Positions 26,572 to 42,790 of a stretch of DNA of 47,868 nt are shown piece by piece. The notes beneath the pieces were generated by a model. That model ran no database searches. It was not told the DNA's origin and saw only the letters and a program-made list of their open reading frames with translations. The translations under genes and the position numbers were made by a program. Position 1 is the first letter of the stretch; every line of letters starts with the position of its first letter. This DNA is from an uncultured Spartobacteria bacterium. GTDB taxonomy: Bacteria; Verrucomicrobiota; Verrucomicrobiia; Chthoniobacterales; Chthoniobacteraceae. Location: NCBI GenBank assembly GCA_903933715.1, contig CAIZLD010000042.1, positions 1 to 47,868 of the forward strand. The letters are read 5' to 3'.

Positions 26572-29088
26572 CTACTCGAATTTGAGCGGGGCGGGGGCGT
26601 CAAGCTGGCCGCTCGAGGGATCTTCCTCGGGAGCCACGTCCAAGGGGCGCGCAGGCACCGCCTGGATGACGCGCGGCTCTTGCGAATCGCCGCTCGGGGC
26701 CGGGGTCGGCGTGGGGGTCGAATTGACTTTCGGGTCGCGAACGACCGTCGGATCGACCGGCTCGGCGGGGGCAACCGTGGTGTTGGTGACGGCATTGAAC
26801 GGATCGTCCCCTTTCACGGTGGCCGATTTTACATGCACCGGCTGGAATTTATTCAAATCGAGGGCCAGTTCCGCTCTCGGAATATCGGCCTCCGGGGCGA
26901 TTTCCCGCACGAAACTTTTCACGCCGCTGTGCAGCTCACACGCGACTTTGGGGGCTTGCAGCGCGGTCCCCCATTCATAACAAACCGTGGAATGCTCGAC
27001 CGGATCGCCCCCGTCCGGGTTGGGGCGGCTCTCGACGCATTTGGGCGTGGCAAGCTGGCCGCTTTGCGAGCAAATTTCAAATTTCTGCAACCCGGAGGGG
27101 CGGGGCAGTTCGCGGGCCGGGAAAGAGGCGAACGTGGCGTTCATGAAATCGACCCAGATCGGGAGGGCGATGTCGTTGGAGAATGCGCCGGGATAAATCG
27201 TCTGCGGGCTGTCGAACCCGGCCCAAACGCCGCAGGTAACGGCGCTCGAGTAGCCGACAAACCAGACGTCGGTGAAGTTGTAAGCGGTGCCGGTCTTGCC
27301 GCCGAGCGGGTTTTTCTTCAACCCATACCGGTTAAACGCTTTTTCGGCGGGGCCGCGCTCCAGCGACTCGGCCAGGGCGCTGTGAACTTCGTAAGCGGTA
27401 TTGGGGGAGATGACGCTCACCCGGCGCGGAGTCGGCTGCCGGTAAATGACGACGCCGTCTTTTTGCTCCACCTGCATCACAATGAACGGTTTTGTGGGGC
27501 GTTCGCCTTGATTGGGAAATAAAGTGTAGGCAAGCGTCAGGTCTTCGAGCGTCACCTCGCTGCTGCCGAGATGGGTGGCCGGGAAGCGTCTCAATTCGCT
27601 ATCGATCCCGGCTTTTTTGGCGAGCGCAAGCACCGGTTCAATCCCGGTGGCGAGACCGAGCCGGACGGTGGCGGCGTTTTTGCTTTTGACCAGCGCGTTG
27701 TGGGCGGTGATCGGGCCTTCGTATTGATTGTCGGCGGACTCCGGCCCCCACTCGCCGAGAATCCCGGTCATCCCGCCAATCATGACGAGGCGGTTATCGA
27801 TGGCGCTGTCCTGATAAACGCTGCCGGGGAAGATCCCTTTCTCAAACGCCGCCGCGTAGACGATCGGGAGGAAGCCGGTCCCGGCGGGCCGGTTGGAGAA
27901 CATGGCGCGGTTGTATTGATTATGGGAAAAATCGCGGCCGCCGACCAGCGCCAGAACCCCCCCGGTGGTGTTGTCGAGCGCGTAAAGCGCCCCCTGGAGG
28001 TAAGTGGGCGGGGGAAGGGGATCGTTGTCGGGCCGTTTGCGCCGGGCCTTATAGAGGGCGTCGTATTGGGTATAAGTCGGGTGGTTGTAGCCGCTCCGCA
28101 GTTCGATCTCTTCGAGCCGCGCGTTAAGGGCATCTTCGGCTTTTTTCTGGAGCTTGGCGTCGAGGGTGGTGTGAATGCGGAAGCCGTCGCCGTAGACGCT
28201 TTCGTCCTCCCCAAGCAACCCGGCGACCTGCTGGCGGACAAATTCCACGGCGTAAGACTCACTATAAATCGACCCTTTCGTTTTAACCGCGAGATTTTCG
28301 GCCAAGGCAGCCTCGTAAATTTTATCGCTGATCTGGCCGAGTTCGTGCATCCGGCCCAGGACGAAGTCGCGGGATTCCAGGCACGCTTTGCGGTTGCGCC
28401 AGGGGGAGAGCTTGTTGGGGCTGCGCAACATCCCGGCCAGCGTGGCGCACTCGGACAACGTCAACTGCTTGGCCGGCTTGCCAAAGTAACCGCGCGCGGC
28501 GGCTTCGACCCCGTAAAAGCCGGAGCCGAAATAGACCCGGTTCAAATAGGCTTCGAGGATCTGGACTTTGGAGTAATTCTGCTCGATCCGGAGCGCCACG
28601 AACGCTTCGAGCAGCTTGCGCTGGAGGCTGCGGTCGCTGCTGGGGAGCACGTCGGGATAGCTATTGCGGGCGAGCTGCTGGGTGACGGTGGAAGCCCCCT
28701 GGCGAATCCGCCCCGCCTGCCAGTTCTTGATCGAGGCCCGCGCCATGCCGATGAAATCGACGCCGTGATGCTGGTAAAAACGGTTATCTTCGGCGGCGAC
28801 GAGGGCTTGCGCCATGTCAAAGGGCATCTCTTTAATGGAGATGGTGTCCCGGTTTTGAATGTAAATTTTCCCGAGCTGCTGGCCGTTGCGGTCGTAGACG
28901 ATGCTCGCCGACTCCATATCCTGAAGCTTTTTGAGATCAATGGTGGATGCCTTCGACCCGTATTCCGCCTGGAGATAGAACAGCCCTCCCCCGACCGCGA
29001 GCGCCCCCAAGAAGGCAAGCGTCACCAGCATGAGAAACCATGCGCGGAGATAAAACGGCTTTTTAGGAGGTGCCCACATTCTCCTCAT
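26572..29088 (-). CDS. PBP1A-family protein with intact glycosyltransferase and degenerate transpeptidase
   Basis: 838 residues from the ATG at 29088; longer reading upstream only translates intergenic repeats. A basic N-terminus and one membrane anchor (about 15-38) precede a GT51 peptidoglycan glycosyltransferase with Glu100 in EDNRFYQHHG and RQGASTVTQQLARN. The penicillin-binding domain has SKN (469-471) and KTGT (598-601). At the SxxK site the sequence is RPAGTGFLPIVYAA, Thr404 and Leu407 replacing the nucleophilic Ser and the Lys. Related PBPs have GSxFKP here. So it probably polymerises glycan but does not cross-link. The C-terminal tail is Pro/Thr/Ser-rich, likely periplasmic. Not a short or broken frame. 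Confidence 0.9.
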   Translation of the reverse strand: MRRMWAPPKKPFYLRAWFLMLVTLAFLGALAVGGGLFYLQAEYGSKASTIDLKKLQDMESASIVYDRNGQQLGKIYIQNRDTISIKEMPFDMAQALVAAEDNRFYQHHGVDFIGMARASIKNWQAGRIRQGASTVTQQLARNSYPDVLPSSDRSLQRKLLEAFVALRIEQNYSKVQILEAYLNRVYFGSGFYGVEAAARGYFGKPAKQLTLSECATLAGMLRSPNKLSPWRNRKACLESRDFVLGRMHELGQISDKIYEAALAENLAVKTKGSIYSESYAVEFVRQQVAGLLGEDESVYGDGFRIHTTLDAKLQKKAEDALNARLEEIELRSGYNHPTYTQYDALYKARRKRPDNDPLPPPTYLQGALYALDNTTGGVLALVGGRDFSHNQYNRAMFSNRPAGTGFLPIVYAAAFEKGIFPGSVYQDSAIDNRLVMIGGMTGILGEWGPESADNQYEGPITAHNALVKSKNAATVRLGLATGIEPVLALAKKAGIDSELRRFPATHLGSSEVTLEDLTLAYTLFPNQGERPTKPFIVMQVEQKDGVVIYRQPTPRRVSVISPNTAYEVHSALAESLERGPAEKAFNRYGLKKNPLGGKTGTAYNFTDVWFVGYSSAVTCGVWAGFDSPQTIYPGAFSNDIALPIWVDFMNATFASFPARELPRPSGLQKFEICSQSGQLATPKCVESRPNPDGGDPVEHSTVCYEWGTALQAPKVACELHSGVKSFVREIAPEADIPRAELALDLNKFQPVHVKSATVKGDDPFNAVTNTTVAPAEPVDPTVVRDPKVNSTPTPTPAPSGDSQEPRVIQAVPARPLDVAPEEDPSSGQLDAPAPLKFE

Positions 29089-29339: not shown

Positions 29340-30260
29340 CTACTTCACCCCGGTTGCCAGCACGGTTTGGAAATGCGGGCTTTCCGGCTCCCGGTCCACC
29401 ACGGCGATGTCGATTTCGCGGAACCCGGCCTCGCGCAACATCGCTTCGAGTTGCACCTCGCTAAACCCAAGCCAAAGATCGGCATACAGGTCGCGGGCGC
29501 TTTCGAACTGGTGCAAGAGCAGGTCCAGGATGGCGACCCGGCCTCCCGGCTTGAGGATACGGTGGGCGGCGGTGATGGCCCGCGCCGGATTGCCCGCGTG
29601 GTGCAACGCCTGGCTCAAAAGCGCGAGATCGACCGAGTCGGCGTCAATGGGCGGGTCTTCGATGTCGCCCAGGCGATATTCGAGATTATGAAACCCGTGT
29701 TCGCGGGCAAGGTTGGAGCCGAATTCCACCATTTTTTCCGAGTTGTCCACTGCAATCACTGTCCGGGCCCGGCGCGCCATCAGTTGCGAGAGCGTCCCTT
29801 CCCCCGCGCCGAGATCGGCGACCGTAATCGGCCCCATTAACGCCAGCAACATCTGGGCAAACCCTTTCCAGGACCGTCCCGGGCAGTAGCTGCGCCCGAA
29901 CGTCCCGGCCAGCTTATTGAAATATTGGCGCGCCTTGTCCTGGCGTTTGTGGCGGATCAAGTTGAGAGCCGCCCGGTCGTGGGCCGCTTCGGGAAGTTCG
30001 TCGGCGCTGGCTTTGATGATCGCCTCAAACGGGTCGCTCGGATGATCGGCTGCTCCGTAATAAATATTCTTCCCGGCCCGCCGATCGCATACCAGCTTGG
30101 CCGCCTTAAGCTGAGCGAGATGGCTGGAAATGCGGCTCTGCCCCATTCCCAGGATTTCCTGGATTTCCGCCACTGAAAGTTCTTCCGCCCTCAAGAGCAG
30201 CAGCAGGCGCAACCGGGTGGGATCGGCCAGGAGCTTCAGCGATTTAACAATGGCAGCCAT
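29340..30260 (-). CDS. ArsR-family regulator fused to a SAM-dependent methyltransferase (SahR-like)
   Basis: 306 residues. Residues 1-85 are an ArsR winged helix (DPTRLRLLLLLRAEELSVAE; recognition helix GMGQSRISSHLAQLKAAKLV, 39-58). The usual metal-binding cysteine motif is absent. Residues 120-306 are a class I methyltransferase with motif I TVADLGAGEGT (146-156). The gene is divergent from metK and ahcY. ArsR proteins of this two-domain type, and the SahR regulator known from Proteobacteria, control the SAM cycle in response to S-adenosylhomocysteine. I infer the same role: the methyltransferase fold would sense SAM/SAH rather than, or as well as, catalyse. The intergenic region carries twin sites. 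Confidence 0.85.
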   Translation of the reverse strand: MAAIVKSLKLLADPTRLRLLLLLRAEELSVAEIQEILGMGQSRISSHLAQLKAAKLVCDRRAGKNIYYGAADHPSDPFEAIIKASADELPEAAHDRAALNLIRHKRQDKARQYFNKLAGTFGRSYCPGRSWKGFAQMLLALMGPITVADLGAGEGTLSQLMARRARTVIAVDNSEKMVEFGSNLAREHGFHNLEYRLGDIEDPPIDADSVDLALLSQALHHAGNPARAITAAHRILKPGGRVAILDLLLHQFESARDLYADLWLGFSEVQLEAMLREAGFREIDIAVVDREPESPHFQTVLATGVK

Positions 30261-30287
30261 GGATTTATGAACTTATCAGGCTAACTT

Positions 30288-30298
30288 GATTGGTCAAT
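30288..30298. promoter_or_regulatory. Candidate operator site 1 (GATTGGTCAAT)
   Basis: GATTGGTCAAT with inverted ATTG/CAAT arms, 28 bp upstream of the regulator start codon. An identical 11-mer lies at 30372-30382, exactly 84 bp away (eight helical turns). Similar TTCC follows both. Position suggests autoregulation. Confidence 0.5.
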
Positions 30299-30330
30299 GT
30301 TCCATCAGAGGGATTGGGCTCGCTTTTAGA

Positions 30331-30359
30331 TTGACTTTGCGCTGTTTTCGAGAGATAAA
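30331..30359 (+). promoter_or_regulatory. Candidate metK promoter
   Basis: TTGACT (30331-30336, 5/6) and GATAAA (30354-30359, 4/6) with a 17-bp spacer. The predicted start is near 30366, leaving a leader of about 75 nt. The two identical operator-like sites lie on either side. Confidence 0.5.
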
Positions 30360-30371
30360 TCAACGCATCAC

Positions 30372-30382
30372 GATTGGTCAAT
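30372..30382. promoter_or_regulatory. Candidate operator site 2 (GATTGGTCAAT)
   Basis: Second exact copy of the 11-mer, just downstream of the predicted metK transcription start, where a bound repressor would block initiation or early elongation. I looked for a SAM or SAH riboswitch in the same leader and saw none. Confidence 0.5.
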
Positions 30383-30439
30383 ACTTCCCCGGGAGTCGGG
30401 CCAGACGCGCTTGCGGCTTAACGTCAACCTCCATTCACC

Positions 30440-31615
<1,176 letters not shown>

Positions 31616-31622
31616 GACAGAC

Positions 31623-31717
31623 GATAGAGGGGGAGACTATAGATTATAGTCTCGGCGATTTGTCGCCACGCCCGCCACCGGCTCCGCCTCTATAATCTAT
31701 GATCTCCACCCTCTATC
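31623..31717. repeat. Long inverted repeat between metK and ahcY
   Basis: GATAGAGGGGGAGACTATAG (from 31623) pairs imperfectly with the segment ending CTCCACCCTCTATC (31690-31717), about 27 bp per arm. The left arm also contains a local palindrome GACTATAGATTATAGTC. It fills nearly the whole intergenic space and could attenuate or stabilise the metK-ahcY message. Confidence 0.65.
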
Positions 31718-31727
31718 ATCTCTTTTT

Positions 31728-33137
31728 ATGACCAACCAAGACTTCAAAGTGCGCGATCTTTCCCTGGCCGACTGGGGACGCCGGGAACTCAACATCGCCG
31801 AGCAGGAAATGCCCGGTTTGATGGCCATTCGCGAGAAATACGCCGCCGAAAAACCGCTCGCCGGGGTCCGCATCATGGGCTCGCTGCACATGACCATCCA
31901 GACGGCGGTTCTCATTGAGACCCTCGTCGCGCTCGGCGCGCAAGTTCGCTGGTGCAGTTGCAATATTTTCTCCACGCAAGATCACGCCGCCGCCGCCATC
32001 GCCGCTGCGGGCGTTCCCGTCTTTGCCTGGAAGGGGGAAAGCCTCGAAGAATACTGGTGGTGCACCGATAAAGCCCTCTCCTTCCCCGGGGGCTTGGGGC
32101 CGCAACTGATCGTGGACGACGGCGGCGACGCCACGCTTCTCATCCACAAAGGCTACGAGCTGGAAAACGGAAGCAACTGGGTCAACACCCCGTCCGGCAA
32201 CCACGAGGAGCAAGTCATCAAAGATTTGCTCAAGTCGATTCACGCCTCCGCCCCGTGCCGCTGGCATGAGGTCGTCAAGGAATGGCGGGGCGTCTCCGAG
32301 GAGACCACCACCGGCGTTCACCGGCTCTACCAGATGGTTGAAAAAGGGGAGCTTCTCGTCCCCGCCATCAACGTCAACGACACCGCCACCAAGAGCAAAT
32401 TCGACAACCTCTACGGCTGCCGCCATTCGCTCGTTGACGGGATCAACCGGGCGCTCGACGTCATGCTCTCGGGCAAAATCGCCGTCGTGTGCGGCTATGG
32501 GGACGTCGGCAAAGGGTGCGCCCAATCGCTCAAAGGCCAGGGGGCTCGCGTCATCGTCACCGAAGTCGATCCGATCAACGCGCTGCAAGCCGCGATGGAA
32601 GGGTATGAAGTCACCACCGTGGAGGATACACTCGGGCGCGGAGACCTTTACATCACCACCACCGGCAACGTCGATATCATCACCTTCGAGCACATGCAGG
32701 GGATGAAAAACCAGGCCGTCGTCTGCAACATCGGTCACTTCGACAACGAAATTCAGGTCGATCTTCTCAACAACGCTCCCGGCGTCACGCGCACCAACAT
32801 CAAGCCGCAGGTGGATAAATACACCTTCGCCGACGGGCATGAAATCTTCCTCTTGGCCGAAGGCCGCCTGGTGAACCTCGGTTGCGCAACCGGTCATCCG
32901 TCGTTTGTGATGAGCGCGAGTTTTTCGAACCAGACGCTGGCGCAGCTTGATCTCTGGAAGAACCGCGACACCAACAAACCGGGCGTTTATATCCTTTCCA
33001 AGAAGCTCGACGAAGAAGTCGCCCGGCTGCATTTGGAGAAAATCGGCGTCAAGCTGACCACCCTCACGCAGAAGCAGGCTGACTACCTCGGGGTGCCTGT
33101 CGAGGGGCCATACAAGCCGGATCACTATCGGTATTAG
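31728..33137 (+). CDS. ahcY: Adenosylhomocysteinase (SAH hydrolase)
   Basis: 469 residues; cleaves S-adenosylhomocysteine to adenosine and homocysteine with bound NAD. Seen: [21 protein letters not shown] near the start, VTKSKFDN-like [15 protein letters not shown], the NAD-binding loop [20 protein letters not shown], and the conserved C-terminus PYKPDHYRY. The TAG stop codon is made of the target TA plus the first G of MITE-like copy 3, so the element sits exactly at the end of the gene without altering the protein. Confidence 0.97.
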
Positions 33138-40615: not shown

Positions 40616-41776
40616 TTAATTCTCGACAGGAGCAGGGGAAATTTCCAACCCCAGGCTCCGGTGCGGCTCGGCGGCCAGCTCGAAGCCCCGCAACGCCGCC
40701 GGGACTCCTTTTGCCAGCGCGAGGAACTGGAATCCCCGGCCCATCAGTGTCGGGTGCATCAATGTGGCAAAGGCGCGTTGTTGTTTCTGGCGTTCCGGGG
40801 TGAGCTGCCCGGGGCTCGTGATGTCCGGGAAGATCGATCGCCCCAGCGCCACGAGAAAATGATGCTGATCGGTGAACCCGGCCAGCTTTAGCCCGGCGGT
40901 TTGCGCCGCTTGGGCGAGCGTGGTGAAATCGACATGCGCAGTGAGGTCTTGCCCGCCCGGATCGGCCAGCGGATTTTCGCAAACCCGGTGTTGCCGGTAA
41001 GCGGCGAGCGTCCCCTCCCGCCGGTCCGGCAGGTAATAGTCGTCCCGCGAAAAACCGTAATCCGCGACCAGCACGTAGCCCCGCTCCAGTTTTGCCGCGA
41101 GCGCGGCCATCCAAACGGGGGCTTCCCGGTTGACCTCGGTCTGGTAGCCCTCGATTCCAGGCAAATGCGCGAAAAACGGCGTCAGTTGCGGGTTGGAAAT
41201 CGGGCCGTCGCTCCACACAAAAGAGCCGTTTGCCCCCTGCGCCACGTATTGTTCCCACCATTTGCCGTTCCGGTAAACGACCCGGTGAACCGGGAAGGCG
41301 TCCACGAGTTCGTTGGAAAAATGGACGCCGGTGAACCGGGGGAGCGCATCCAGAGCATCATGCCAAGTCACTTTGCCCGCAAATGGCTCCAGCCGCGCTT
41401 CCTGCCGTTCCCGGTTCACGGCAAACGGCTCAATAATAAGATAGTGCAACGCCGCGAAAAACGCGGGAGACGATTGCGCCGCGCTCAAGACATCGTGGGC
41501 GAACTCTCCCCGGTTGGCCCCTTGTTCCACCAAGTCGAACCGGGTTGGGCGGTCAAGCCGCTCCCAGATCTCTTCAAATTGCGTCGCCAGCAAGCGTCCG
41601 AAAAGCGGGCCGACGCTCACACTCGTCATAAAATCGCCCTCGCCGCCAATGGCAGCCCGGCCCGAAGCGTAATAACCGTGGGCGGGATCATAGAGCGCCC
41701 GTTCCATAAAACGCCGGAACGGCATCGGGCCGGTGCGGGCGATTTCTTCGGCAATGGATTGGGCCAGGGAAGGCAT
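40616..41776 (-). CDS. MidA/NDUFAF7-type SAM-dependent methyltransferase
   Basis: 386 residues from the ATG at 41776 (MPSLAQSIAEEIARTGPMPF); the frame is open 12 codons more. Signatures of the DUF185/MidA family: FMERALYDPAHGYYASG near the start, DLVEQGANRGEFAHDVL in the SAM-binding site, HFSNELVDAFPVHRV and VLVADYGFSRDDYY. The eukaryotic homologue methylates an arginine of a complex I subunit; the bacterial substrate is unknown. A GGTGGATCGCGA repeat lies just upstream. Confidence 0.88.
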   Translation of the reverse strand: MPSLAQSIAEEIARTGPMPFRRFMERALYDPAHGYYASGRAAIGGEGDFMTSVSVGPLFGRLLATQFEEIWERLDRPTRFDLVEQGANRGEFAHDVLSAAQSSPAFFAALHYLIIEPFAVNRERQEARLEPFAGKVTWHDALDALPRFTGVHFSNELVDAFPVHRVVYRNGKWWEQYVAQGANGSFVWSDGPISNPQLTPFFAHLPGIEGYQTEVNREAPVWMAALAAKLERGYVLVADYGFSRDDYYLPDRREGTLAAYRQHRVCENPLADPGGQDLTAHVDFTTLAQAAQTAGLKLAGFTDQHHFLVALGRSIFPDITSPGQLTPERQKQQRAFATLMHPTLMGRGFQFLALAKGVPAALRGFELAAEPHRSLGLEISPAPVEN

Positions 41777-41822
41777 GGTGTCAATTATCGCCGGGCAGTT
41801 CTCGAGGCGCAATGCACAATTC

Positions 41823-41872
41823 CGGGTGGATCGCGACCTTGCTCCGGGCGCGATGGGGGATGCGCCACCATT
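41823..41872. repeat. GGTGGATCGCGA-family dispersed repeat
   Basis: GGGTGGATCGCGACCTTGCT, then CCGGGCGCGATGGGGGATGCGCCACCATTT, aligns with the copies at 10383 and 46918. It fills the gap upstream of the MidA gene, with CGCC-CTTTTTGCGG motifs of the CTTTGCG family to its right (41886-41911). Confidence 0.65.
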
Positions 41873-41908
41873 TATCCTCTGTCTAGCGCCTCCTGCGCCT
41901 TTTTGCGG

Positions 41909-42790
41909 CTACTCTTTATCGGAGGGGAGCGCGTCCCGGAACGACGGGTAGATCGGCACCCAGCCGAGCGCGCGCAGTTTGGCGTTGCTCACCGCCTTGT
42001 GGGTCCAGCCGCGTTTGCGTTCGAGATGGGGCGGAGCGAACGGGGGGAGCGGAGAATGGAAATGCCCGGCCAGAACCGCGTAGACCTCCCGCTGTGAAGT
42101 CGGCGTGTCATCGACGACGTTGTAGATGCCGGGCGGCTGCGTGAGCAGGAACCGGATCGCCGAAGCGGCATCGGCCCGGTGAATGGCGTTAACGAAACGA
42201 GAACCATCCCCCTCAATCACCGCCCGGCCCTCGACGAGTTTATCCCGCAACGCCCAACGTTCCGGCCCGTAGATGCCGCCCAGCCGCGCCACCGTCCCCC
42301 CCGCGGCCAAGATCAATCCCTCGGCGGCTCGCAAAATCTGGCCGGTCTCACGCGCCGGTTCCGCCGGGCTTTCCTCGTTGACGGTCGCCCCGTCCTCCTG
42401 CGCGTAGACCGACGTGCTGCCGCAAAAGACCAACCTCGCGGCGGGGAAGGCCGCGATCAAATGCCGGGCTCCCTCCAGGTAAACCCGGCGGTAAGCGTCG
42501 GCTCCGCCCCGGCTCGAACTGGCACAATGGATCACCGCGTCGAAGCGGCCCAGCTTTATCAAAGCGTCCGCCTCTGCCAGATCGCAGGCAATCACGCGGA
42601 ACGGCTCGATCCCCAACGCTTCGGCTGAGGCTTGCGTCCGGGTGATCGCCACGACCTCCCAGCCTTGCGCGTGGAACAGCCGCGCCACGGCGGTTCCCAG
42701 GTAGCCGCATCCGGCGACGAGTACGCGCCGTTGCATGCGCACGGCCGTCTCGCAGGAAAACTCGTTATCGGGTGCAGGGAGCCGGTTCAT
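41909..42790 (-). CDS. NAD(P)-dependent epimerase/dehydratase (extended SDR)
   Basis: 293 residues. The Rossmann motif is GCGYLGTAVARLF; FCGSTSVYAQEDG carries the family's Tyr-containing strand, and ARLGGIYGPER a later landmark. Substrate is unknown, though the size and layout resemble YeeZ-type proteins. The ATG at 42790 overlaps the Nudix stop (ATGA), which argues for this start and for coupled translation; the ATG at 42736 would place the Rossmann motif right at the N-terminus and is an alternative. Confidence 0.82.
   Translation of the reverse strand: MNRLPAPDNEFSCETAVRMQRRVLVAGCGYLGTAVARLFHAQGWEVVAITRTQASAEALGIEPFRVIACDLAEADALIKLGRFDAVIHCASSSRGGADAYRRVYLEGARHLIAAFPAARLVFCGSTSVYAQEDGATVNEESPAEPARETGQILRAAEGLILAAGGTVARLGGIYGPERWALRDKLVEGRAVIEGDGSRFVNAIHRADAASAIRFLLTQPPGIYNVVDDTPTSQREVYAVLAGHFHSPLPPFAPPHLERKRGWTHKAVSNAKLRALGWVPIYPSFRDALPSDKE

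Follow-up and report, generated by a model that had tools for sequence, protein, structure and literature searches.

Class A penicillin-binding proteins (PBPs) are described as bifunctional, and an enzyme without the Ser and Lys of the SxxK motif should not be acylated. The closest described parallels come from Escherichia coli, where PBP1C (PbpC), which keeps SxxK, is said to have been found by Schiffer and Holtje in 1999 to be mainly a transglycosylase that binds few beta-lactams. The role of PBP1C is still termed unclear (PMC6456298). The S510A mutant of PBP1b, altered at the serine of its transpeptidase (TP) domain, retains lipid II polymerisation, and in the presence of ceftriaxone it can sustain growth that relies on the L,D-transpeptidase YcbB (PMC5089857). 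The protein reported here would resemble that mutant as a class A PBP working only through its glycosyltransferase (GT) domain, in a wall that we propose is cross-linked by another enzyme; S510A is a laboratory mutant, however, whereas the present protein belongs to a naturally fixed lineage, and its partnership with L,D-transpeptidases is putative. With PBP1C it would share a role as chiefly a polymerase, but it lacks the SxxK of PBP1C and falls far below the PbpC/PBP1C models (432.4 against 900 for NF051885; 309.3 against 494.2 for TIGR02073). Its predicted activity, polymerisation without transpeptidation, is that of the monofunctional MGT/MtgA enzymes, from which it differs in retaining a full-length, constrained TP domain that is confidently folded in the predicted structure. 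We suggest that it is quite probably a natural, fixed glycan polymerase carrying a pseudo-transpeptidase, the latter a probable scaffold or non-covalent ligand partner, with the strands cross-linked by other enzymes.

The gene lies in the 47,868-nucleotide stretch of DNA analysed here (the window), contig C42 of a 2.8 Mb genome that is 97% complete, and its features are the following.

26572..29088, minus strand: divergent class A PBP gene, 838 aa, with membrane helix, GT51 domain, pseudo-transpeptidase and a C-terminal tail (Cys residues, low-confidence stretch)
28945..29043, minus strand: putative N-terminal membrane helix, residues 16-48; a helix in the model, with a membrane role suggested by the hydrophobic sequence
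28345..28884, minus strand: Transgly PF00912 (glycosyltransferase, GT), residues 69-248; E 1.2e-62, catalytic E100 and E161 kept
27241..27990, minus strand: Transpeptidase PF00905 (TP), residues 367-616; 63.5 bits against a cut-off of 22.1, structural match to PBP1a/PBP1b, catalytic Ser and Lys missing
27865..27882, minus strand: GTGFLP, residues 403-408, with T404 in place of Ser and L407 in place of Lys, at the start of the catalytic helix (helix 403-416 in the model)
27676..27684, minus strand: SKN motif, residues 469-471, kept (sequence alignment)
27286..27297, minus strand: KTGT motif, residues 598-601, kept; followed by A602-Y603, against T-N/D in canonical copies

A GT51 domain and a transpeptidase-fold domain, each scoring above its Pfam cut-off, on a single chain with a predicted membrane anchor make up the architecture of a class A PBP. 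The frame, counted from the ATG at 29088 on the minus strand, is open throughout, as the original prediction had stated; translation and alignment likewise bear out its reading of GTGFLP, with Thr404 and Leu407, where bifunctional enzymes have GSxFKP, down to the residue numbers, and its statement that SKN, KTGT and Glu100 are kept. The codon of T404 occupies 27877-27879 and that of L407 27868-27870, and the interval 27868-27891 encodes residues 400-407 (RPAGTGFL). The protein thus has the SxN and KTG motifs of acyl-serine transferases and lacks the nucleophile and base of SxxK, a loss common to its genus. Its nearest NCBIfam family is TIGR02074 (PBP1A), with which it shares domain order, GT51 residues, TP fold, KTGT and SKN, yet its 494.2 bits fall below the cut-off of 508.75.

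The window comes from one MAG contig, and an error of sequencing or assembly at 27868-27880 was therefore considered. Four other MAGs of the genus, whose proteins share 70-75% identity with this one, carry GTGFLP (three) or GTEFLP (one) in this position, so that TxxL is present in all five genomes of the genus; such an error is therefore excluded for practical purposes. In an AlphaFold2 model built from a 79-row alignment (mean pLDDT 88.2; TP mostly 94-99, weaker near 431-460), GTGFLP begins its helix, SKN is placed between two helices and KTGT on a strand, which is the arrangement of active PBPs. The best matches among solved structures are PBP1a (4oon), at Z 47.8 and rmsd 2.2 over 383 residues with 31% identity, and PBP1b of E. 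coli (5hlb), at Z 43.0.

The second, canonical PBP1A that the original prediction had proposed to look for was found on contig C60. It is the only other class A PBP of the genome, reads GSTFKPFVYA, SRN and KTGTTN, and passes the TIGR02074 cut-off with 533.9. The genome also encodes three class B PBPs (GSVFK, GSTFK and GSTFK, all with KTGT), two SEDS proteins, and ten clear and one weak YkuD L,D-transpeptidases, the SxGC motif being readable in seven of the eight YkuD loci scanned; among its class A and class B PBPs, SxxK is lost solely in the window protein. We posit that the divergent protein would act as a membrane-anchored polymerase of glycan strands, with a bifunctional class A PBP as its ancestor, while its cross-links would be supplied by the canonical class A PBP, the three class B PBPs or the 10-11 YkuD enzymes. 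Its TP domain would be a pseudo-enzyme, for which no acyl-enzyme with stem peptide or beta-lactam is expected because both nucleophile (Ser) and base (Lys) are missing; still folded, and retaining the strand with KTG as well as the last two residues (K-N) of the SxN motif, it would probably serve the GT domain as scaffold or non-covalent ligand partner. What is known of the family would predict both the GT activity and the absence of acylation; the beta-lactam insensitivity and the role as structural or regulatory partner that the original prediction suggested are likewise putative.

Of 147 genomes of the order, 130 have an orthologue (match at E <= 1e-180); we take the order to be Chthoniobacterales because the named relatives are labelled Spartobacteria or Chthoniobacteraceae. 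Outside the order, a Thr-bearing orthologue occurs in families f35 and f15, the latter (genus g31) probably the family of Akkermansia, and a Ser-bearing one in two named Verrucomicrobiota MAGs (L042 and L049); in a draw of 194 genomes from the phylum, matches at E <= 1e-90 were found in 26, all within the source class. A tree of 133 class A PBPs places the divergent proteins in one group of 99 and the canonical paralogues in a separate group (SH-aLRT 100 for each), although it was built quickly and has some long branches, so that finer placements within the divergent group are less sure. Since the loss is common to the whole order and to a second lineage, the divergent PBP looks like an old and stable specialisation rather than a broken gene. 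No published description of it was found in the open-access literature, and a paper devoted to bacteria that lack class A PBPs names Verrucomicrobia but, in the passages available, not the divergent PBP; as far as that literature goes, the family is an undescribed class A PBP variant. Within the order, two very small genomes (0.9 Mb), which probably belong to endosymbionts, gave no match to a class A PBP and 0-1 matches to YkuD. We also note a class A PBP-like protein of family f39 (L132, G138:C23), which shows GAVLQP, GNT and MNGF at the positions expected for the three TP motifs and whose TP domain is apparently more degenerate, in a different lineage.

Loss or variability of the nucleophile, base and proton-relay residues is what one would see if the TP domain had become relaxed and dispensable after duplication and were simply decaying. 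Across the 17 genomes with both paralogues, however, the median ratio of TP to GT protein distance is 1.08 for the divergent and 1.02 for the canonical protein, so that the divergent TP domain outpaces its canonical counterpart in these genomes by no more than about 9%; and in all ten genus pairs the dN/dS of the TP domain is 0.05-0.31, like that of the GT domain and of the canonical paralogue, these values being rough because dS is often near or above 1, that is, near saturation. The ratio and the low dN/dS argue against decay, as do the breadth of retention across the order and the absence of premature stop codons inside full-length orthologue matches. Decay is hence very unlikely, and the earlier judgement that the altered site is not simple decay is upheld.

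Conservation at the motif columns shows what is constrained and what is not. The alignment that the original prediction called for, to see whether Thr and Leu are conserved, gave a divided answer: both are fixed across the genus and Thr prevails in the order (position 404 is T in 102 and S in 11 of 113 orthologues), but position 407 is variable (T42, K35, L19, V9, I4, G1, S1 and Q1). In the same 113 sequences, residue 469 is S in 69, G in 43 and A in one, 470 is K in all and 471 is N in 112; K598, G600 and Y603 are invariant, and T601 is present in 110. All 19 canonical paralogues have S404, K407, SRN at 469-471 and KTGT at 598-601, with N or D at 603. Over all 129 divergent proteins, Thr stands at the nucleophile position in 116, Lys is kept in 37 and SxxK is present in 11, and the GT residues E100, D101, H107, G131, S133, Q138, K158, E161, K174 and N183 are found in every row. 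The motif combinations are TxxX-GxN (43), TxxX-SxN (34), TxxK-SxN (26), SxxK-SxN (11), TxxX-SxI (11), SxxX-SxN (2) and others (2). SxN is intact in all 37 proteins that keep Lys, and the S or N of SxN is also changed in 56 of the 92 that have lost it, although the tree offers few independent pairs for this comparison.

These columns bear on two further readings. Thr404 could itself be the nucleophile of a working transpeptidase, with another residue such as K470 or K598 as base, and the prevalence of T404, the invariance of K470 in the order, the retention of KTGT and the 26 orthologues combining TxxK with SxN and KTG would all fit. Against this, position 407 is unconstrained and S469 has become Gly in 43 of 113 proteins, and therefore the proton-relay residues drift; active PBPs commonly have Lys as the central residue of SxN (e.g., L045 and L047); and a change of Ser to Thr at an acyl-serine nucleophile is generally expected to be very damaging. 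We consider this reading unlikely for the family at large, though the 26 TxxK orthologues, their other motifs intact, may have weak Thr-based activity in those lineages. The other reading makes the TP domain mainly a regulator, binding stem peptide or beta-lactam non-covalently and switching on the GT domain or partner synthases. The near-invariance in the order of the ligand-positioning residues K598, G600, T601 and N471, when the catalytic residues are not so kept, agrees with it, as does a TP constraint about as strong as that of the canonical paralogue, and there is precedent for PBPs with non-catalytic roles in Clostridioides difficile, which can complete division when its class A PBP has no TP activity and can still form a septum through a class B PBP mutated at the catalytic Ser (PMC12539705). 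Fold stability alone could give the same conservation, however, and N471 is often Ile in the second lineage; we regard a mainly regulatory domain as possible but doubtful. The reading that we prefer is the one originally predicted, in which a polymerase of glycan carries a penicillin-binding fold that is not acylated. It fits every comparison (Thr/Leu across the genus, Thr across the order, invariant GT residues, a constrained TP fold, a canonical second PBP), although Ser and Lys stand together in 11 of the 129 proteins.

Such Ser/Lys orthologues had been named in advance as evidence against the prediction, and they turn out to be a minority found at three places in the tree, with codons indicating re-acquisition at two of them. 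They carry complete SxxK, SxN and KTG motifs and are probably active, judging by these motifs, and the family is therefore not uniformly inactive. Genus g4 has Ser404 in all ten members sampled (L031, L052, L057-L059, L062, L066, L068, L072 and L182); outside that genus, the residue is seen in L023, a single species of genus g9, and in L042/L049. Parsimony counts on a tree built with the motif columns masked give a minimum of three changes inside the clade at 404 and at least seven between Lys and non-Lys at 407, and a history in which Ser is never regained requires it to have been lost 13 separate times. The Ser404 codon is AGC in all 11 proteins of g4 and L023, and TCN in L042/L049 and in the canonical copies checked; that of Thr404 is nearly always ACG or ACC. 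As ACC to AGC is one step and TCN to AGC is not, the Ser of g4 and L023 would most simply have come from Thr, an apparent return from the pseudo-enzyme state. L042/L049 may never have lost Ser, in which case Thr would have had at least two origins. Two g4 members, branching together at the base of that genus, have SxxL, and the Ser/Lys pair is thus not restored in all.

The distribution of L,D-transpeptidases bears on which enzymes may cross-link the strands. Among 141 genomes of the class, YkuD matches have a median of 9 (5 to 17) in the 42 carriers of the divergent PBP, against 2 in the 99 others, carrier status being assigned by family from searches and alignments. The family medians are 10 and 2 (Mann-Whitney p 7e-7), but families are not independent, and the contrast is therefore consistent with coupling and not proof of it; it may come down to one or two events in the phylogeny, and family f20 has 6-8 L,D-transpeptidases yet no strong match to the divergent PBP. 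A division of labour with the L,D-transpeptidases is a tentative proposal. For Akkermansia, a review gives the wall chemistry as A1-gamma, the fraction of 3-3 cross-links not being among the passages available. We would tentatively extend these observations to a scenario, less likely than not, in which an ancient paralogue of the Chthoniobacterales and two further Verrucomicrobiae families gave up D,D-transpeptidation to become a dedicated polymerase for a wall cross-linked largely by expanded L,D-transpeptidases, Ser later coming back via Thr in one genus and one species and possibly re-activating the pseudo-enzyme. Routine annotation would label the divergent PBP a transpeptidase. The order-wide loss of the catalytic pair beside an intact paralogue allows one to ask, in a natural setting, whether a single chain must carry both polymerisation and cross-linking, and is relevant to the beta-lactam response of the Verrucomicrobiota, including the family that is probably that of Akkermansia.

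The neighbours of the gene in the window (an ArsR-methyltransferase, metK, ahcY and a histidine kinase) were not found beside orthologues in the available flanks, and we therefore propose no operon-based function. Adjoining the PBP gene at 29340-33137 are an ArsR-methyltransferase fusion on the minus strand and then metK-like and ahcY-like genes on the plus strand, which together look like a SAM-cycle cluster. An open reading frame at 40901-42097 on the plus strand was considered as a conserved upstream gene and rejected as an antisense reading of a PF02636 (Methyltransf_28) methyltransferase gene at 40616-41809 on the minus strand, about 12 kb from the PBP gene in the window. Across the order, many genomes have a relative of this PF02636 gene next to the divergent PBP gene, the two apparently being oriented oppositely.
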